Shown piece after piece: positions 8,569 to 62,202 of a stretch of 64,000 nt of DNA; the first letter of the stretch is position 1, and every line of letters begins with the position of its first letter. The DNA lies in assembly GCF_051622035.1 (NCBI RefSeq), contig NC_135359.1, positions 31,649,501-31,713,500 of the forward strand, in the 5' to 3' direction. Below the pieces are notes generated by a model. The model searched no databases, was not told the origin of the DNA, and saw only the letters and a list, made by a program, of their open reading frames with translations. The position numbers were made by a program, and so were the translations under genes. This DNA comes from Arctopsyche grandis. Its lineage: Eukaryota > Arthropoda > Insecta > Trichoptera > Hydropsychidae.

Positions 8569-8808
8569 ATCCCGATTAAAGGTCTGTTCATACCTATCCA
8601 GCACGACCCGAATCTTGCAAGTATCCTGCAAGTACGGACAGTATTCTTTAATACATTCTATATGGACGCGCATGAATGCGTAAATGCGTATGCGCGAATG
8701 AAGTATGAATGCGTCCATATAATGTACCAAAGAATACTATACGCACTTGCAGGACACCTGCAGGATACGGGTCGTGCTGGATAGGTATGAACAAACCTTA
8801 ATCGGGAT
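8569..8808. repeat. 240-bp foldback element upstream of zinc-finger gene A
   Basis: Begins ATCCCGATTAA and ends TTAATCGGGAT. The arms of about 110 bp are inverted copies: TTCATACCTATCCAGCACGA on the left, its reverse complement on the right. It ends about 105 bp before the zinc-finger start codon and is equally present at 23797-24036 in unit B, but not upstream of the third zinc-finger copy. Confidence 0.85.
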
Positions 8809-8912
8809 GCCTGACAAGTTGTCAGTGACAACCCTAGGTATAACTAGTACCAAATTTAGACCAAAGAAAAGAGCAAGGCGTCTGGTTGCTGTCAGAGTAA
8901 AATACTGGGACG

Positions 8913-10624
8913 ATGGAGTGCAGGCTTTGTCTCGGATCAGCTCCGGCCGAGTCTTCCATCTCCATCTTCCAGAGACCAGGTCCTCATCCAGAGCGTCTGG
9001 AGGAACGCATTCGGACCGGCTGTCAGATTTATGTAGGTTACTGGTTACAGGTTACAATACTGTTGTGGACCCAATTGGTTCTCCCGACTCTTCTCACCGC
9101 TCAATCCTATTGTTTTTTTCATTTCATCTGCAGGTTAAAAGAGGCGATGGGTTGCCAGACACGGTGTGTCTTTCGTGTAAGACCAATCTCGAATCGTTGA
9201 TCAGCTTTCGAAAGGCTTGTTTTCGAAGCCACGAAACGTCTCAACTGAGGTTAGCTGATTGCTTGAACATCAAGACTGAAGAAGTTTTCTTAGAAGATCT
9301 AATATGGGACGACGAGCCTTCACAATCGACAATTCACCGAAAGGATAGTGACATTTGCTTGAAGCCATTTCCCAGTGAATCTGAACTTATTTTACACAAA
9401 AGATCTCATCCTGAAGAAAAGCGGTTTCAATGTGATATTTGTTTAAAATCATTTGGTTATAAAAATATACTTGTGGTACATTTAAAAACTCACACGGGGG
9501 AAAAGCCATACAAATGTGACATTTGTTTAAAATCTTTTACTTATAAATATAAACTTGTGATACATTTAAGAACTCACACGGGGGAAAAGCCATACCAGTG
9601 TGAAATTTGTCTAAAATCATTTACTCAAAAATCTAACCGCGAGACACATAAAAAAGTGCATGCTGGGTTAAAACCACACAAATGTGGGATTTGTTTAAAA
9701 TCATATGTTCGTAAAAATGAACTTGTGTCACATTTGAGAACTCACACGGGGGAAAAGCCTTACAAGTGTGAAATTTGTCTAAAATCATTTATTGAAAAAC
9801 GTAGGCTCAATAATCATAAAAAATTGCATGCTGGGATAAAACCACACAAATGTGACATTTGTTTAAAATCATATGTTCATAAAGATCAACTTGTGTCACA
9901 TTTAAGAACTCACACAGGGGAAAAGCCTTACAAGTGTGAAATCTGTCTAAAATCATTTATTGAAAAACGTAGGCTCAATAATCATAAAAAATTGCATGCT
10001 GGGATAAAACCACACAAATGTGACATTTGTTTAAAATCATATGTTCATAAAGATCAACTTGTGTCACATTTAAGAACTCACACAGGGGAAAAGCCTTACA
10101 AGTGTGAAATCTGTCCAAAATCATTTACTCAAAAATCTGACCTCGAGAGACATAAACGATTACATGCTGAGATAAAACCACACAAATGTGACATTTGTTT
10201 AAATTCGTATGTTCGTAAAGATGGACTTGTGATACATTTAAGAACTCACACGGGGGAAAAGCCTTATAGGTGTGAAATCTGTCTAAAATCATTTACTCTA
10301 AAATCTAGCCTCGGAAGACATAAAAAATTGCATGCTGGGATAAAACCACACAAATGTGAAATTTGTTTAAAATCATATGTTCGAAAAATTGAACTTGTGA
10401 CACATTTAATATCTCACACGGGGGTAAAGCTATACAAATGTGACATTTGTTTAAAATCATATGCTTGTAAAGATAAACTTGTTAAACATTTAAGAACTCA
10501 CACCGGGGAAAAGCCTTACAAGTGTGAAATTTGTCTGAAATCACTTACTCAAAAACCTAGCCTCGAGACACATAAAAAATTGCATGCTGGGATAAAACCA
10601 CACAAATGTGACATTTGTTTATAA
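8913..10624 (+). CDS. ZAD-C2H2 zinc-finger protein, copy A (two exons)
   Basis: Predicted nuclear DNA-binding protein. Exon 1, 8913-9032 (40 codons), starts MECRLCLG and holds the first two zinc-binding cysteines of a ZAD domain. The intron at 9033-9133 has a GTAGGT donor and a CTGCAG acceptor. Exon 2, 9134-10624, supplies the ZAD second half (CLSCKTNLESLISF), an acidic linker (EEVFLEDLIWDDEPS), one degenerate finger and 14 complete C2H2 fingers. Linkers alternate TGEKPYKC and AGIKPHKC, a two-finger repeat unit. Fingers at about 9759-9926 and 9927-10094 are a nearly perfect 168-bp tandem duplication. The frame ends at TAA 10622-10624 where sister units read AAA, and finger codons continue downstream. 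ZAD mediates dimerisation in known family members; target DNA is unknown. Start chosen because it begins the ZAD; the ORF open from 8747 is intronic and upstream sequence in another frame. Confidence 0.85.
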
Positions 10625-24140: not shown

Positions 24141-25837
24141 ATGGAGTGCAGGCTTTGTCTCGGATCAGCTCCGGCCGAGTCTTCCATCTCCATCTTCCAG
24201 AGACTAGGTCCTCATCCAGAGCGTCTGGAGGAACGCATTCGGACCGGCTGTCAGATTAATGTAGGTTACTGGTTACAGGTTACAATACTGTTGTGGACCC
24301 AATTGGTTCTCCCGACTCTTCTCACCGCTCAATCCTATTGTTTTTTTCATTTGATCTGCAGGTTAAAAGAGGCGATGGGTTGCCAGACACGGTGTGTCTT
24401 TCGTGTAAGACCAATCTCGAATCGTTGATCAGCTTTCGAAAGGCTTGTTTTCGAAGCCACGAAACGTCTCAACTGAGGTTAGCTGATTGCTTGAACATCA
24501 AGACTGAAGAAGTTTTCTTAGAAGATCTAATATGGGACGACGAGCCTTCACAATCGACAATTCACCGAAAGGATAGTGACATTTGCTTGAAGCCATTTCC
24601 CAGTGAATCTGAACTTATTTTACACAAAAGATCTCATCCTGAAGAAAAGCGGTTTCAATGTGAGATTTGTTTAAAATCATTTGGTTATAAAAATATACTT
24701 GTGGTACATTTAAAAACTCACACGGGGGAAAAGCCATACAAATGTGACATTTGTTTAAAATCTTTTATTTATAAATATAAACTTATGATACATTTAAGAA
24801 CTCACACGGGGGAAAAGCCATACCAGTGTGAAATTTGTCTAAAATCATTTACTCAAAAATCTAACCTCGAGAGACATAAACGATTACATGCTGGGATAAA
24901 ACCACACAAATGTGACATTTGTTTAAAATCATATGTTCATAAAGATCATCTTGTGTCACATTTAAGAACTCACACAGGGGAAAAGCCTTACAAGTGTGAA
25001 ATCTGTCTAAAATCATTTACTCAAAAATCTAACCTTGCGTCACATAAAAAATTGCATACTGGGATAAAACCACACAAATGTGACATTTGTTTAAAATCAT
25101 TTATTCGAAAAGATAAACTTGTGACACATTTGAGATGTCACACGGGGGAAAAGCCATACAAATGTGACATTTGTTTAAAATCATTTGTTCGAAAAATTGA
25201 ACTTGTGGCACATTTAATATCTCACACGGGGGTAAAGCTATACAAATGTGACATTTGTTTAAAATCATATGCTCGTAAAGTTCAACTTGTGTCACATTTA
25301 AGAACTCACACAGGGGAAAAGCCTTACAAGTGTGAAATCTGTCTAAAATCATTTACTCTAAAATCTAGCCTCGGAAGACATAAAAAATTGCATGCTGGGA
25401 TAAAACCACACAAATGTGACATTTGTTTAAAATCATATGTTCGAAAAATTGAACTTGTGACACATTTAATATCTCACATGGGGGTAAAGCTATACAAATG
25501 TGACATTTGTTTAAAATCATGTGTTCGTAAAGATCAACTTGTGTCACATTTAAGAACTCACACAGGGGAAAAGCCTTACAAGTGTGAAATCTGTCTAAAA
25601 TCATTTACTCAAAAATGTAGCCTCAATATGCATAAAAAATTGCATGCTGGGATAATACCACACAAATGTGACATTTGTTTAAAATCATATGTTCGTAAAG
25701 ATCAACTTGTGTCACATTTAAGAACTCACACAGGGGAAAAGCCTTACAAGTGTGAAATCTGTCTAAAATCATTTACTCAAAAATCTGACCTCGAGGGACA
25801 TAAACAATTGCATGCTCAGATAAAACCACACAAATGA
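24141..25837 (+). CDS. ZAD-C2H2 zinc-finger protein, copy B (two exons)
   Basis: Exon 1, 24141-24260, encodes MECRLCLG and the first ZAD half. The intron 24261-24361 (101 bp, GTAGGT donor, CTGCAG acceptor) has the same length as in copy A. Exon 2, 24362-25837, gives the ZAD second half, the acidic linker and 14 C2H2 fingers. The first three fingers align with copy A; from the middle on, finger order and helix residues differ (for example SYVHKDHLVSH then SFTQKSNLASH), so arrays have been reshuffled. The frame ends in TGA 25835-25837, right where a repeat has been inserted within a finger. Predicted nuclear DNA-binding protein; targets are unknown. Confidence 0.85.
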
Positions 25838-31719: not shown

Positions 31720-34374
<2,655 letters not shown>

Positions 34375-36694: not shown

Positions 36695-36900
36695 GTCTCT
36701 TTCGAAATTATATGTATATACCAGAATCCGGCGGCTGCGAATTCTCGTATATATGTTACACCGAATCCGTGAAATTGTCTATGACACGCATTCGGCAAGA
36801 GAATTGCCGAATGCGTGAAAAATGCAAGCACGTTGCCCAGTTCACGGTTTCGGCAAATTCTTTGCCGAATGCGTGAACTGGACAGCGTGTAATATTATAA
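36695..36900. repeat. Hairpin-rich repeat (copy 1)
   Basis: Contains a perfect 14-bp hairpin CACGCATTCGGCAA/TTGCCGAATGCGTG (36785-36798 and 36804-36817) and an 18-bp hairpin with two mismatches (36840-36857 and 36861-36878). An inverted copy of the block lies at about 37750-37870. Confidence 0.8.
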
Positions 36901-37749
36901 CCAAGTGTCAAAGTGACAGCTGAATGAGGATGTTTAATTTACATATTATTATGTATAATATGACTACATACATATGTTTCGATCATCTCATATGACTTGT
37001 ACATAAATTAATGCTATTTTTATACATTTTGATCAATATTTTAAGTCGGAATTTTATACCTTTTGAAGAATCAGTATTATATTATAAATATTTTATTTCA
37101 TTACACATGTCCCAGAACATAGCTCTCGGCTTCACCGACCAGACCAAATGTATAAAAACGTGAACGACTAAGAAATCACCGGGTGTGAAACGCTTAATCT
37201 AACTGCATATATCTCTCCGGAGTCCGGAGATACATTTTCCGAAGGACCAAAACAGCCCTGCGTGACCTGAGCCATAGAACACTTTGTATTTTAACAAGCT
37301 CATAGTCACCTCTCACTCATTGGTTTAACTTAAAAACATTTTTTGGACAGGGGACTATTACAGACAAACACTCTTTGAAGTCTTTGAGAATGGGCTAAAA
37401 ATGTACCTTAAATTTAAACAATAAGTCACTATTAATAGTTTTTTGGGCTTTTATTATTTCTTTTACACAAAAATACAATGGAGCTGACTGTGTGTTCATA
37501 CATAGTAAATAATTTTTACATGATATAAATTAATATTAAAAATTTTAACAACTTTTCTCACCGTCACAGATAGAATTTGCTCATATTTAAATTTAGCGCA
37601 TTTCACAGGAGTTGTGACCACTAGAAATTATGTACTATATGCATTTCAATTATAATTGATAGTAGTAGTAGATTTATGTAAAGTTCTAAAAAACAACACC
37701 GGAGCGCTGCTGTCTATTTGCCGACTCCATGCTTTGAGCAGACAAATTC
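36901..37749. other. Unassigned AT-rich stretch
   Basis: No gene or clear repeat boundary seen; a TCCGGAG-type inverted phrase occurs near 37215-37230. Confidence 0.4.
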
Positions 37750-37870
37750 GCCAAAAAATTTGCCAAATCCGTGAACTGGGCAACATGCTTGCATTTTTCA
37801 CGTATTCGGCAATTCTCTTGCCGAATGCGTGTAATAGACAATTTCACGGATTCGGTGTAACATATACATA
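37750..37870. repeat. Hairpin-rich repeat (copy 2, inverted)
   Basis: Reverse-complement relation to 36695-36900, with the same hairpin (CACGTATTCGGCAA/TTGCCGAATGCGTG) carrying one mismatch. The following 37875-38010 is instead a direct repeat of about 36505-36615. Confidence 0.75.
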
Positions 37871-38568: not shown

Positions 38569-40082
38569 TTACCCGGTGTGAGTTCTGAAATGTCCCACAA
38601 GTGCATTTTTTCGAATAAATGATTTTAAACAAATATCACATTTGTATGGTTTTATGTCAGCATGCGATTTTTTATGTGTCTCAAGGCTATATTTGTGAAT
38701 AAATGATTTTCGGCAAATTTCACACCTGTAAGGCTTTTCCCCCGTGTGAGATCTCAAATGAGATACAAGCTTTTTTTTATAAATAAATGATTTTAAACAA
38801 ATTTCACATTTGTGTGGTTTTATCCCAGCATGCAATTTTTTATGTCTCTCGAGGCTAGATTTTAGAGTAAATGATTTTAGACAAATTTCACACTTGTAAT
38901 GCTTTTCACCCGTGTGAGATATCAAATGTGACACAAGTTCATCTTTACGAACATATGATTTTAAACAAATGTCACATGTATGTGGTTTTATCCCAGAATG
39001 CAATTTTTCATGTGACACCAGGGTAGATTTTCGAGAAAATAATTTGAAACAAATTTTACATTTGTGTGGTTTTATCTGAGCATGCAATTGTTTATGTCTC
39101 TCGAGGTAATGTTTTTGAGTAAATGATTTTAGACAGATTTCACACCTGTAAGGCTTTTCCCCCGTGTGAGTTCTCAAATGTGACACAACTTGATCTTTAC
39201 GAACATATGATTTTAAACAAATGTCACATTTGTGTGGTTTTATTCCAGCATGCGATTTTTTATGTGTATCGAGGATAAATTTTCGAGTAAATGATTTTAG
39301 ACAAATTTCACATTTGTAAGGCTTTTCCCCCGTGTGAGATCTTAAATGAGTTACAAGTGTACCTTTTCGAATAAATGATTTTAAACAAATGTCACATTTG
39401 TGTGGTTTAATTCCAGTATGCAATTTTTTATGTGTCTCCAGGTTAGATTTTTCAGTAAATGATTTTAGACAAATTTCGCACATGTATGGCTTTTTCCCCA
39501 TGTGAGATCTCAAATGATTCACAAGTGCATTTTTTCGAATATATGATTTTAAACAAATGTCACATGGAAACCGCTTTTCTCCAGGGTGAGATCTTTTGTG
39601 TAAAATAAGTTCAGATTCACTGGGAAATGGCTTTAAGCAAATTTCACTATTCTTTCGGTGAATTGTTGGTAGTGAAGGCTCATCGTCCCATATTAGATCT
39701 TCCAAGAAAACTTCTTCAGTCTTGATGTTCAAGCAATCAGCTAACCTCAGTTGAGACGTTTCGTGGCTTCGAAAACAAGCCTTTCGAAAGCTGATCAACG
39801 ATTCGAGATTGGTGTTACACGAAAGACACACCGTGTCTGGCAACCCATCGCCTCTTTTAACCTGCAGATGAAATGAAAAAAACAATAGGATTGAGCGGTG
39901 AGAAGAGTTGGGAGAACCAATTGGGTCCACAACAGTATTGTAACCTGTAACCAGTAACCTACATAAATCTGACAGCCGGTCCGAATGCGTTGCTCCAGAC
40001 GCTCTGGATGAGGACCTGGTCTCTGGAAGATGGAGACGGAAGACTCGGCCGGAGCTGATCCAAGACAAAGCCTGCACTCCAT
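38569..40082 (-). CDS. ZAD-C2H2 zinc-finger protein, copy C (two exons)
   Basis: Minus strand. Exon 1 is 40082-39963 (MECRLCLG, first ZAD half, 40 codons); the intron 39962-39862 is again 101 bp with GTAGGT donor and CTGCAG acceptor. Exon 2 is 39861-38569: ZAD second half, where CLSCNTNLESL replaces CLSCKTNLESL, the acidic linker and 12 C2H2 fingers with alternating TGEKPYKC and AGIKPHKC linkers. The last finger ends at HTG followed by TAA where the linker normally reads GAA (TGEKP), so it is a nonsense change; finger sequence continues beyond. Finger helices differ widely from copies A and B. Predicted nuclear DNA-binding protein; targets are unknown. The 240-bp foldback upstream of A and B is absent here. 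Confidence 0.85.
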
Positions 40083-40740
40083 CGTGGCTGTATTTAACTG
40101 TGACAGCAATTTCCGCGTTCACACAAAAGACATCAACGAATGTTATTTAGTGGATCTAGAAATATCGTGAATCGTACGCATGAGAGCGTTTGCACCCGCG
40201 ATATATACCTGGTTTACAGCCAGTACATGTTTCACAACAATAGCAAAGTCTTACGATGGCATAATCATCGCTCTTGTACAAACATGCAGAATGAATCTCA
40301 ACAACGTCCCATTTGGCTATTCCAGAAAAAAGAATTCATCGCTCCGAAGCTGAGGAACGAGCTTCTTTGTACATATATGCTAATTACTATTGTAACAAGT
40401 GAACATAAATAAAGGATCCTCTTACTAACACAATCAGTGTTTTCATAGACCTTCCCGCGGCACATTTACCGCCGCGGTGAATTAAGATTAAACTGTGATT
40501 TGACATTCGAACTGTCAAAGTGAAATGAACGCAAAAGCGATTGCCAACCTTCAGCGTCAGATGAGCTGACTCTGACTCTGATGAGATGCCCGCGAACTCC
40601 TCGTGAAGACCACAACCAACGGCCACGAGGGCTTTTGGCTCGAACATATGTCGAGTCGATAATAATAAAAATTTCGTAAATAAAAAGAATATTTTTGTTT
40701 GTGTGACCAGTTATCATACGATCAATTTTAATTTTTTGGG
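40083..40740. other. LTR-like remnant and unassigned sequence
   Basis: 40370-40470 has TTGTAACAAGTGAACATAAA, an AATAAA signal and GGATCCTCTT, paralleling the end region of the solo LTR at 42557-43023 (AACGATCCTCTTTC). The start of this LTR could not be set. CCGCGGCACATTTACCGCCG near 40457 is partly self-complementary. Confidence 0.4.
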
Positions 40741-46233: not shown

Positions 46234-46628
46234 AGTTGACACACAAACATTCATCTTCACATTATAAATAAAGTAAAAAGACTTGTTGTTTTCAAATTAT
46301 TTTTATTATTATTATATAATTAACAATTACTTTACAATAACATTCACTCTGTTGGTTAAACATCATCAGTAGCACCCAAAATTACTCAAGACGTAATAAA
46401 TTCCTAAAATTTAGTATATAATAATAATAAGCGGTTATAATTTACAGTGAGACGTGATAGTTTGGGCTCTTTCGCTATCTAATTAAGTACGTACAAATTT
46501 AACTTAATAGTTCTTTCATATAAAAATATGTATGTATTATAAAATAATAAAAAAATTCATACAGTGATTAATTAAAAATATTAACGTGGCTCAAACCGTG
46601 TACACTGCAGTCAAAATGCAGCAGTTAA
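46234..46628. other. Unassigned AT-rich stretch
   Basis: No gene found. TTAA at 46625-46628 is the left target site of the following element. Confidence 0.4.
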
Positions 46629-47134
46629 CCATTTGCCCGCGGCCGTCTTCTATGGAAGCTTTGCGCGACAAGTCTGTAGCGCGGCTGTCTTCCATAGAAT
46701 TTCTGGACTTTGCACGAGATTTTGAGCCTTATATGCGCCTATTTCAACTGTTTTAAGGTTCAAAATTGGTTGAATATATTACTGAGAGTTGAATACCATC
46801 TATTCAATTTGCTTAAAATGAATATATACCAGTCAAAATTAGTTTTTTATGGAACCATATTGAAACCTCATTTATGTGACGTCACGTCTGTTGAACAATG
46901 GCGACGATACGTCTCAATTGTATGAAGAATGACTATTTGACAATTAAGCGAAGACTACGAGATATATTATGTATTTTATTGTTTAAAATAATACTTTATG
47001 TGTTAATTAACATATCTGGTTACTTGAGTAAATATTAATATCTGTATTTAAGGTCGAAAAATTCGTTGCCAAATTCGCGAAAAAGGTACCGCATACAGGG
47101 CTTGTTCGCTATATTTACTGCCGCGGGCAAAGGG
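46629..47134. mobile_element. piggyBac-type MITE with TTAA target duplications
   Basis: 506 bp with near-identical terminal inverted repeats CCATTTGCCCGCGGC and CCCTTTGCCCGCGGC (one mismatch), each directly next to TTAA (46625-46628, 47135-47138). TTAA duplication is diagnostic of piggyBac. No transposase inside; a 71-codon open frame has no family resemblance. Confidence 0.85.
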
Positions 47135-47138
47135 TTAA

Positions 47139-47882
47139 CAATTGACTCGGGACTATCAAATTTTATCTAGGAAAGCATTACATACACATAATCAAATCAA
47201 TCTAAAATATATAACTAATTTAAATACAATAAAGTGGAATTGTCCTTAAAATACTATTATAATATAATTATGAATAGACCGCTGCGAGGTTGAAGCCGAA
47301 CATACGAACATTCATAGGCTACACTCGGATCGCGCCGGGGTATAATAATATAAATATAATTTCTATGTGCAATACTGTTGAGGGACGCACTTCATTGCAG
47401 ATTAAAAAATATATTCGCATCATCTGCGTTAAAGCGAGAGTTGTTGAATAATCTTATTGAAAACAAAATTTAATACAAACATATACAGGTTTTGGTGCAA
47501 ACGATCGACAAGCGCCAGACAGACTGAACCACAGATTAACTGGATGGCTGCTTTAAACGCAATTCTCGACTTCACGAATGATAGATTGCAAATCAGATGA
47601 CGAGTAACCTTTCGATGTGCACAGATGCAATTATTAAAATTGAGTTGGATCTTTCTGGCGAGTTTAATGAGGCAAAATTCGGAACTAAAGTATCAGAAGC
47701 ACAGAACGTTTACAGGGTAGGTGTATGTCGGGACTTTGGGTAGATTTCGCTTAGTGTAAGTGCGAGCAGTGCGCACGCATAAGGTAAACGTGTCGTTAAT
47801 CTGTTGTTCAGTCTGTCTGGCGCTTGTCGATCGTTTGCACCGCATCGACATATACATATACAAATACGAAACGGAATGTGAT
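47139..47882 (-). other. Region downstream of AP-1 mu, likely 3' UTR, with strong inverted repeat
   Basis: Follows the AP-1 mu stop codon on the minus strand. It contains a 47-nt inverted repeat (see the separate entry). No AATAAA could be chosen with confidence; AATAAG near 47450 is a weak candidate. Confidence 0.45.
47494..47841. repeat. 47-nt inverted repeat in AP-1 mu 3' region
   Basis: Arms 47494-47540 and 47795-47841 are reverse complements at 46 of 47 positions, with a 254-nt spacer. Each arm contains CGATCGACAAGCGCCAGACA or its complement. If both arms are in the AP-1 mu transcript they would form a long near-perfect RNA duplex. Confidence 0.9.
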
Positions 47883-49151
47883 TCAATTGGTGCGAAGCTG
47901 ATAGTCTCCGTTCTGCGTGATGTACCGGACCCACGGCAGCGCTTGATACCCGCTCTTTTCAATGATCTTCAAATACCGCACTTGAATGCCCGACGTTGTG
48001 AAGTACGGTATCTCGAACTTGACCTGTATCGGTGGCTTGCCGTCCGAGTCCTCGCACTCGACCGACGGCAGTCCGAAGTGCGCCTTCATGAGGTACTCCT
48101 TTCCGCCCTGGAACGACTTGATCAGCCACGTGATGGCGTTCTGCTCCGGCGTATACTTGACGCTGCCTATCGTCGTCTTGAACTTGGGAGAGTCTGCGTC
48201 AGCCGGCACCGGTATCACGATCTCGACGTTGTTCGCCGTCGACCTCTTCTTGAACTGCGACTTGGCTCGGATCATGTATTCGACTCGGGAGTGAGCGTGG
48301 CGGTCGATCACCGACTCGATCCAAATCAACGGCTTGACGTGTGTGTTCAGACGGTACGACATCAGCTCGAATTCGCCGTCTGGCGGGATGAACGAGATCG
48401 TCCGGTCGTTTTCGAATCTAGATAGTCGGACGCACTGATGGAATTTGACGTCCTCTAATTCCACCGACTTTGACTTGCCTCGGCCGGTGCTCTCGAACAG
48501 GACCTTATCGTTCAGACCGAGACGCAGCTCCGGCATACCCGAAAGGTACACCCTCATTTTGATAGCGCCGACTATTTCGCTCCGTAAGACGTTGCCGTTG
48601 GAATTGGCGAGTAGATTCACCGATTCAATGACGTCGAGGAAGACCTCGTTCTTGCGATACTTGATGCCTTCGGACCGCCACGACACGGCGTTGGTGACCG
48701 CCATCGGTATCCTCGGTTGTATCTCGAGTTTGTGACCCTCCTGCGTGATGTACTCTTGCAGGATTTTACTATCGGTCGTTTGAGGATATCCAAAGTCTAA
48801 CAGCTCGTCCAAAAGTTCGTAGATCACGACGAAATTGTCCCGTATGCTCTCCTCTTCCAATTCTTTAAAATATTCAGTCATTACTTCTACTATTTTATAT
48901 AAAAATACAAATACCAAGGCGATGTTGGCGTTCTTCTTCGTCGTCGACACTATGTATAGATTGTTTGTTTTGATGTAGGAGAAGGTGCACTCGTTGGTTT
49001 GCAACAGAGGTGTTACGAGACCCTCTTCCTCCTTTTCCATGAGCAACGGCATGAATTTGTCGATCACTCCCAACTCGATATCGCCGCGGTATGTACGCGA
49101 TATCAACACCTTTCCCTTCACGTCCAATATATATATCGCCGAAGACGACAT
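47883..49151 (-). CDS. AP-1mu: AP-1 complex subunit mu (medium adaptin)
   Basis: Medium chain of the heterotetrameric AP-1 clathrin adaptor, which sorts cargo at the trans-Golgi network and endosomes. 422 residues, full length compared with metazoan mu1 (about 423). The N-terminal longin-like domain covers residues 1 to about 140, with MSSSAIYILDVKGKVLISR at the start; the linker has YITQEG at 134-139. The mu homology domain runs from about 165 to the end. F171 and D173 (VFLDVIE), W407 and R409 (LPWVRY) match the tyrosine-signal pocket of mu2. No stops or frameshifts, and GC-richer codons than the surroundings. The start has AACAATG context. The coding sequence is in one exon; a GTTCCAG acceptor 16 bp before the ATG suggests a 5' UTR intron, arguing against a retrocopy. 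Very confident in the identity. Confidence 0.98.
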   Translation of the reverse strand: MSSSAIYILDVKGKVLISRTYRGDIELGVIDKFMPLLMEKEEEGLVTPLLQTNECTFSYIKTNNLYIVSTTKKNANIALVFVFLYKIVEVMTEYFKELEEESIRDNFVVIYELLDELLDFGYPQTTDSKILQEYITQEGHKLEIQPRIPMAVTNAVSWRSEGIKYRKNEVFLDVIESVNLLANSNGNVLRSEIVGAIKMRVYLSGMPELRLGLNDKVLFESTGRGKSKSVELEDVKFHQCVRLSRFENDRTISFIPPDGEFELMSYRLNTHVKPLIWIESVIDRHAHSRVEYMIRAKSQFKKRSTANNVEIVIPVPADADSPKFKTTIGSVKYTPEQNAITWLIKSFQGGKEYLMKAHFGLPSVECEDSDGKPPIQVKFEIPYFTTSGIQVRYLKIIEKSGYQALPWVRYITQNGDYQLRTN

Positions 49152-49167
49152 TGTTGAGAATATTCAC

Positions 49168-50330
49168 CTGGAACATTGATAAAAGTAATGATTATTCATG
49201 TATTGAGAGCTTCAAAGCAGTTATAGAAGAAGACAAATCCTTTATGACTGTTTTGTTGACACAAGCGTGTGTTAAAAGCCAGAAATAATAGTTGCTTTAT
49301 ATGATATCCGTATGCGGTATAAACCCACATACCGTCTTATCTTCTCAACCGTTTGTATGTACGTTTCAATTGAAACACTATTGATGCTCAGCTCTTAAAT
49401 ATCGTTTATCTGTTGGGGTTTTCAACATCTTTATTATTTCAGAACAATAAAGTAACAAATCTTGTTTTACTTAAAATAATGTCTATTAGGATTTTGAATG
49501 CGTTCAATATTTTATTTTTTATTTTACATAGATATATACCAGGAAGGCCAAAATGCGCCTTCCTGGACAATTAATTACAAACAATGCAGCATTTTATTAT
49601 TACATAAATCACTGTATTTCGAGAATTTGAAGAACACGAAATAACAATTAATTAAATAAATAATAAATCCATTGAGACATCTATGGATTTACATAGATTT
49701 GAACATAATTTTTACAAATTGTACACACAATAAATACAGAAGATTTGTGACAACAGGAAAGATGATTTTTTGCCAATTTTCGAGGAACCGTTTCAACAAT
49801 GATCAGATAAAATTGGTAAACTCTGATAAGAAACGATCGATTTATAGTCACAAATACCCCAAATCTAACCAGCAGCATAGCGGATCGAATCCACTGATCA
49901 CTTGGTGCTAAACATACACGCTACCATCGAGCCATACTGCTGGCTATATGTTACAGATGACAATCACACCATTTCGCACTTAAGTATCATCTTTCATAAT
50001 AATTATTGCTGCATTTGTCTCGCGACCCGTGCAAAGTGAAGCAATATTTTTTAGCATAAGTGAACACTCACAGGGTGAAGATAATACGGAATATTGTATG
50101 AACGAAATGGAATTGACAAACGTCAAAAAAGGAATAGAAGTATATTTTTGTGAGGAGTATTTGACGTTAGGTGCAATTAGGCAAAGTTTGACGTTTACTA
50201 ATAAGTGGGTGTACTGAAGTGACATAACCTACAATGACGTGGACCGCAGAAGTGAAGTGGCGATTGTGGGGAACGGGGGTGGGGGTGGGGGTGGGGGTGG
50301 GGCGGGGCGGGGGGCGAAGGCTGTACTCAC
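49168..50330 (-). other. Candidate 5' UTR intron of AP-1 mu
   Basis: On the minus strand GGAA|GTGAGTAC (donor at 50330) and ATCAATGTTCCAG (acceptor at 49168) give a 1163-nt intron between a GC-rich first exon and the coding exon. It contains a tRNA-derived SINE. Inferred from splice signals only. Confidence 0.5.
49497..49945 (-). mobile_element. tRNA-derived SINE
   Basis: The minus-strand head (49945 to about 49868) folds like a tRNA: 7-bp acceptor stem CCAGCAG/CTGCTGG, a TTCGA-containing T arm (GTGGATTCGATCCGC), box A-like TGGCTCGATGGTAGCG, and a 7-nt anticodon-type loop with GTT. The body ends near 49497 in an A/T-rich tail with a hairpin CCAGGAAGGC/GCCTTCCTGG. The body recurs at about 53873-54060 without the head. 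Confidence 0.7.
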
Positions 50331-61566: not shown

Positions 61567-62202
61567 AAATGGTTCAGAGACCAGATATGAATTTTCTTAT
61601 AGATATATTTACAGTGAACCCGAATCTGGTAATAAAAAATGTTGGTTGGCCCGAGATTCGGAGATACATACATATGTATATGTGTTTTTTAAATCGCGCG
61701 ATTTTTCTATATCTTGGTGTTGTTCGGTCGATGTCTCAAAATCTGTCAATTTACTGTTCAAAATGAATATTGGAATCTATAGTCGGGTATTTTATCTTTC
61801 ATTTGTAGTACTTTTCAGCTTTCAAATCTCTCTAAATAGTCGTCCAGTTCAAATCAAAAGTCAAAAGTACGTATTTTCATTTGGGATTTTTTCCCATTGT
61901 TAATACTATTTTATATTGAGTATTTTCTATTGAAACATGTTTATTGAGATAGTGTTCTGGCCACACTATTTTTTTTTTCGTTTAAAAGGGTTAATCGGAA
62001 GTGTGCTGAATTTTAAATCATTTTGAACAGGAAATTGACAGATTTTGAGACATCGACCGAACAACACCAAGATATAGAAAAATCGCGTGATTTAAAAAAC
62101 ACATATATCTCCGAATCTCTAGCCAATCAACATTTTTTATTACCAGATTCGTGTTCATTGGGCATAGATCTATAAGAAAACTCATATCTCGTCTCTGAAC
62201 CA
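61567..62202. repeat. Long inverted repeat, arms about 190 bp
   Basis: Left arm 61567-61765 and right arm 62019-62202 are inverted copies with scattered differences: TGGTTCAGAGACCAGATATG opposite its near reverse complement, and GTTGTTCGGTCGATGTCTCA in full. The spacer contains, at 61955-62015, the repeat also inserted in zinc-finger copy B (25966-26022, inverted). Possibly a foldback transposon; no terminal target duplication identified. Confidence 0.85.

Follow-up and report, generated by a model that had tools for sequence, protein, structure and literature searches.

Why does a near-perfect inverted repeat lie directly behind the AP-1 mu gene of Arctopsyche grandis? The initial annotation of the 64-kb stretch of DNA analysed here (the window) had offered two answers, a substrate for RNA-level processing in the 3' UTR or a recent inverted duplication without a role, and both of these miss the cause. 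The repeat is almost certainly the pair of terminal repeats of a young, non-autonomous transposon of the MITE type, which would have moved in trans and inserted 35 nt past the AP-1 mu stop codon, before gene and element were together duplicated in inverted orientation. The locus serves as a caution, because what appears as a striking inverted repeat beside a conserved gene consists of the ends of a dispersed transposon, and it contributes a further MITE family, which has young copies, target sites of 9 bp and outer tips that do not pair.

The inverted repeat and its position

The repeat was re-found as first described, with two arms of 47 nt each that are complementary at 46 of 47 positions and separated by a spacer of 254 nt (Table 1). 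An independent-base estimate with loops of up to 3 kb gives a chance expectation of about 2e-17 for such a repeat in the window, which is rich in inverted repeats (29 pairs of at least 24 nt within 3 kb). Arms and spacer together are richer in G + C than their flanks (155/348 vs 95/281, p 0.007), in keeping with an inserted element. No further copies besides the two arms were found inside the 64-kb window, no Rfam family matched the repeat at E values of up to 1, and patterns of the arms had 0 matches in the viral and genome contig collections; a phage search returned 23 records with short matches only, all at E 1 or worse. A sub-threshold Rfam match to SNORD24 at 47386-47428 on the minus strand (25.3 bits, where the gathering score is 41; E 0.33) is probably due to chance.

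The 422-aa product of the gene has AP-1 mu-1 as its best solved match (E 8e-238), and pattern matches to AP-1 mu in the viral and genome contig collections included none that was confirmed. Since the coding sequence lies on the minus strand, the repeat is located downstream of the stop codon, which agrees with its original placement after AP-1 mu; in mRNA sense, the element begins 35 nt and the first arm 41 nt past the stop codon. Read-through of the stop codon into the first arm was considered and set aside: the frame remains open over 24 codons, but the hairpin is 41 nt off, and the end of AP-1 mu also agrees with the solved AP-1 mu-1. At the other end of the gene, a sequence resembling a 3' splice site, TTTTATCAATGTTCCAG, occurs 16 nt before the ATG (region 49152-49260, minus strand) and would be compatible with a possible intron in the 5' UTR.

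Table 1. Features of the AP-1 mu locus and the adjacent element (positions in the window).
Feature	Position	Strand	Remarks
Possible poly(A) signal ATTAAA	47469..47474	-	19 nt beyond second arm in mRNA sense; consensus match only
Left target-site duplication ACATATACA	47479..47487	+	Exact match to 47848-47856; limit agrees with genome copies
MITE copy, 360 bp	47488..47847		Tips GGTTTT (GGGTTT in the consensus) and GCATCG, enclosing terminal inverted repeats of 47 bp; limits from matches of genome copies
Left inverted-repeat arm	47494..47540	+
Possible poly(A) signal ATTAAA, inside spacer	47663..47668	-	Consensus match only
Right inverted-repeat arm	47795..47841	-	With lineage-specific G-to-T change (plus strand)
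Right target-site duplication ACATATACA	47848..47856	+	Exact match to left duplication
AP-1 mu coding sequence	47883..49151	-	One uninterrupted frame, TGA at 47885-47883

Limits of the element

The natural unit is larger than the repeat first reported and comprises the 360-bp element and the 9-bp direct repeats that flank it. This direct repeat sits six bases beyond each arm, and none was found that abuts the arms themselves. Matches of at least 9 bp at equal offsets were obtained for 16 of 20,000 randomly drawn pairs of window sites (sites with long TA runs excluded), 1 of 1500 pairs in the neighbourhood and 0.2% of Markov flanks; when any offset was allowed, the corresponding values were 9 of 3000, 13 of 1500 and 2%. 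At these rates, the 9-bp duplication is suggestive on the evidence of the window alone, and falls short of proof. Ten other inverted repeats chosen from the window never had a flanking direct repeat of more than 6 bp; one of them starts at base 2 and is untestable on its left, and another has TTAA inside its arms, where it is invisible to the scan.

The duplication was proposed from the window first, and the limits of the genome copies later agreed with a 360-bp insertion. The outermost six bases of the consensus are unpaired (GGGTTT vs CGATGC, 2 of 6 alike), which is odd for the tips of a transposon and a point against the MITE reading.

Copies across the genome

A search of the animal's own genome (475.7 Mb) yielded 1543 first-look candidates, of which the best 40, including the window copy, were scored. 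All 40 are full-length or nearly so and 96-100% identical. The match starts at query position 9 (window position 47488) in 33 of these copies, and it spans exactly positions 9-368 (47488-47847) in 17 and positions 9-369 in 15; the ends of the rest lie mostly at 368 or 369 or slightly beyond. The flanks of the 39 other copies were fetched and considered together with those of the window copy. Exact 9-bp target-site duplications were present in 27 of the 40 (23 distinct sequences), 8-bp duplications in 4 and 9-bp duplications with one mismatch in 4, while 5 copies had none that was clear. One flank is common to three copies and another to two, and the window copy has the same one as its gene duplicate; copies with their own target sites are spread over many contigs.

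The consensus of the 40 copies is 358 bp long, and its arms pair at 47 of 47 positions. Among the individual copies, 47 positions pair in 14, 46 in 19, 45 in 4 and 44 in 3. Median identity to the consensus is 98.9%, and the window copy, with 98.0%, has the lowest value of the 40. The single mismatch had been taken as a sign that the repeat is young or maintained. Its youth is borne out, but nothing points to maintenance, since pairing at 44-47 of 47 positions is found throughout the family, as a consequence of the arms being the ends of a transposon. Older copies are under-represented, as the 40 scored are the best matches of 1543, and youth would therefore apply to these 40 copies, without being established for the whole family.

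The element resembles MITEs in its small size (approx. 360 bp, too short for a transposase), its terminal inverted repeats, its target-site duplication of fixed length and its many homogeneous, near-identical copies (best 40 scored); it differs from them in the unpaired outer six bases of its two ends, and no parent was found in the loci examined. We infer that some transposase moved the MITE in trans; on insertion downstream of AP-1 mu, 9 bp of the target would have been duplicated.

The proposal of a recent local inverted duplication does not survive these results. Template switching is described as a source of near-perfect inverted repeats, and the templated lengths given for a great-ape set have a median of 12 and a maximum of 128 (PMC7954356), so that 47 nt would be long for this process, yet within its range. 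Such an event leaves the 40 scored copies and their 23 different 9-bp duplications unexplained and is an extremely improbable origin; the repeat belongs instead to one copy of a dispersed MITE family. Hairpin repair was likewise rejected on the genome copies. That the repeat is an artefact of assembly, a suspicion which the neighbouring inverted gene duplicate could raise, is hardly credible, given that many contigs have copies with target sites of their own and that the gene duplicate differs by substitutions.

The duplicated AP-1 mu locus

A second AP-1 mu gene was located in inverted orientation at C5:31719520-31720785 (L048, L086), with approx. 21 kb between the two genes. Both encode identical 422-aa proteins in coding sequences without introns. 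The AP-1 mu protein had six matches in the genome, two intact ones on C5 and four weaker ones on C12 (38-58% identity), and the latter pieces are, by inference, probably AP-2 mu. The idea that AP-1 mu arose by retrocopying from a parent gene with introns was considered and rejected, as no second AP-1 mu parent was among the six matches.

The copies of the element in the two AP-1 mu loci (that of the duplicate is L009) lie approx. 24 kb apart and represent one common insertion. Between the two loci, differences were counted at 3 of 1269 coding sites, all synonymous, at 4 of 360 sites of the MITE, at 11 of 3275 sites of other aligned non-coding sequence, which also has 68 gap columns, and at 0 of 514 sites of the neighbouring TTAA element.

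The sole mismatch of the arms, an A opposite a G when read in mRNA sense, is caused by a G-to-T change that is present in 2 of the 40 copies, namely the window copy and that of the gene duplicate; the other 38 have the other base. The mismatch thus arose within the lineage of the window copy, because the consensus of the 40 pairs throughout. Because both loci share the target site and the mismatch, the insertion predates the duplication of AP-1 mu, and the order of events can be read from the locus: MITE insertion first, inverted duplication second. In that second step, gene and element were copied together, in inverted orientation, to a place approx. 24 kb away.

Possible RNA hairpin and polyadenylation signals

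A hairpin in the 3' UTR is plausible, because the element starts so close behind the stop codon of the minus-strand gene. The RNA fold of the stretch has a predicted energy of -134.1 kcal/mol (100 shuffled versions average -91.7; z -6.94), and the predicted fold in a 1035-nt context forms 46 of the 47 arm pairs. If transcription continued past the element, the 3' UTR would fold into a 47-bp hairpin open to ADAR or Dicer-2. Whether this hairpin is part of the mature mRNA depends on which of two possible ATTAAA signals is used (Table 1); with the one in the spacer (47663-47668), the second arm would drop out of the mRNA. Weaker variants of the poly(A) signal are also scattered nearby and further on. 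What stands of the suggested RNA duplex is thus its position just past the stop codon and, given transcription through the element, its strong predicted fold, while its placement in the UTR is plausible only.

Contact with ADAR or Dicer-2 would be as with other young repeats and is expected to be incidental. Inverted-repeat hairpins in 3' UTRs that are edited by ADAR have examples in C. elegans and human; here, too, the DNA has a repeat after a stop codon that would form a hairpin. In the bumblebee, a nearby reverse-complement match was present for 916 of 4510 hyper-edited regions and for 147 of 4510 controls (PMC6453909), and a second study names young repeats as the main target of editing in animals (PMC9989829). 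Editing of this hairpin, whose arms contain 24 adenosines in mRNA sense, would be unsurprising, because editing in the bumblebee and other animals is concentrated on repeats and nearby inverted pairs.

These reports, the position directly past the stop codon, the predicted fold and the presence of the MITE at each of the two AP-1 mu copies detected would also suit a hairpin recruited as a control element of the AP-1 mu 3' UTR, acting through editing, dicing, nuclear retention or Staufen-type decay. We consider such recruitment very unlikely, since the pairing is a property of the family and local selection is not needed to account for it, and a possible poly(A) signal lies within the spacer. 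Nor is the element specially conserved between the two gene copies, as shown by the comparison of its 4 differences in 360 sites with 11 in 3275 for other non-coding sequence and 0 in 514 for the TTAA element. It is highly improbable that AP-1 mu has a regulatory 3' UTR hairpin which is switched by the choice between the poly(A) signal in the loop and that just past the hairpin and has been kept in both gene copies. To judge from the sequence, any RNA hairpin would most likely be a by-product of the landing of the MITE rather than something peculiar to AP-1 mu. If it is read through, the locus would provide a natural test of how ADAR and Dicer handle a single young repeat when it lies in the 3' UTR of a trafficking gene with a housekeeping role.

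Superfamily

The family is filed as a MITE without superfamily assignment; the length of its target-site duplications would fit Merlin or Mutator-like elements. Mutator-like transposons (MULEs) have 9-bp target-site duplications, within a general range of 8-11 bp, and longish inverted repeats. The MITE resembles them in its 9-bp duplications, which lie within that range, and in the length of its inverted repeats; no common ends were found at 4 of the 60 genome matches to the MULE transposase family, each examined with approx. 1.5 kb on either side. One MULE match (C1:39483434-39483703) is located approx. 0.6 kb from a copy of the MITE (C1:39482503-39482862, L047), which is a separate insertion because it has its own intact 9-bp duplication.

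Merlin elements are characterized by 8-9-bp target-site duplications, terminal GG and inverted repeats of 24-462 bp, and very unlike ends are described for one Merlin family (PMC8101967). The MITE shares with Merlin and IS1595-type elements the 8- or 9-bp duplications, the length range of the inverted repeats and a left end that begins with GG (GGG). Unlike them, its right end (reverse complement CGATGC) begins with CG, and Merlin membership is not claimed because a terminal GG is present at the left end and absent from the right.

The IS1595-type transposase family has 41 matches in the genome, many of which cover part of the domain. In the 20 of these loci that were examined (5-9 kb each; the first 12 matches also as loci of 3.2-3.4 kb), no IS1595-type transposase was found between MITE ends. 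Parts of the MITE are present at two of the 20 (L069, L080), neither of which encloses the transposase match. An autonomous element with these ends was not found among 20 of 41 IS1595-type and 4 of 60 MULE loci, which may count against the MITE reading. The MITE copy in L080 (1-2727) appears to be split at consensus positions 64-69 by approx. 2.6 kb, with the six bases on both sides, as would be expected from the insertion of another element.

Other features of the window

A second candidate element, 0.35 kb away at 46625-47138, has the ends TTAACCATTTGCCCGCGG and TTAACCCTTTGCCCGCGG in inverted order and is likely a second MITE, which resembles a TTAA-targeting, piggyBac-like element. It contains a canonical AATAAA at 46980-46975. 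Long inverted ends at 61570-62202 (100 nt with 88% and 90 nt with 98% identity) and at 36750-37866 (121 nt, 94%) possibly mark other DNA transposons. At 31722-32725, a (TA)n microsatellite forms a perfect palindrome with arms of 502 nt. Three long frames (8723-10624, 24260-25837 and 38569-40146), which belong to blocks with more than one copy in the window, contain arrays that resemble C2H2 zinc fingers.
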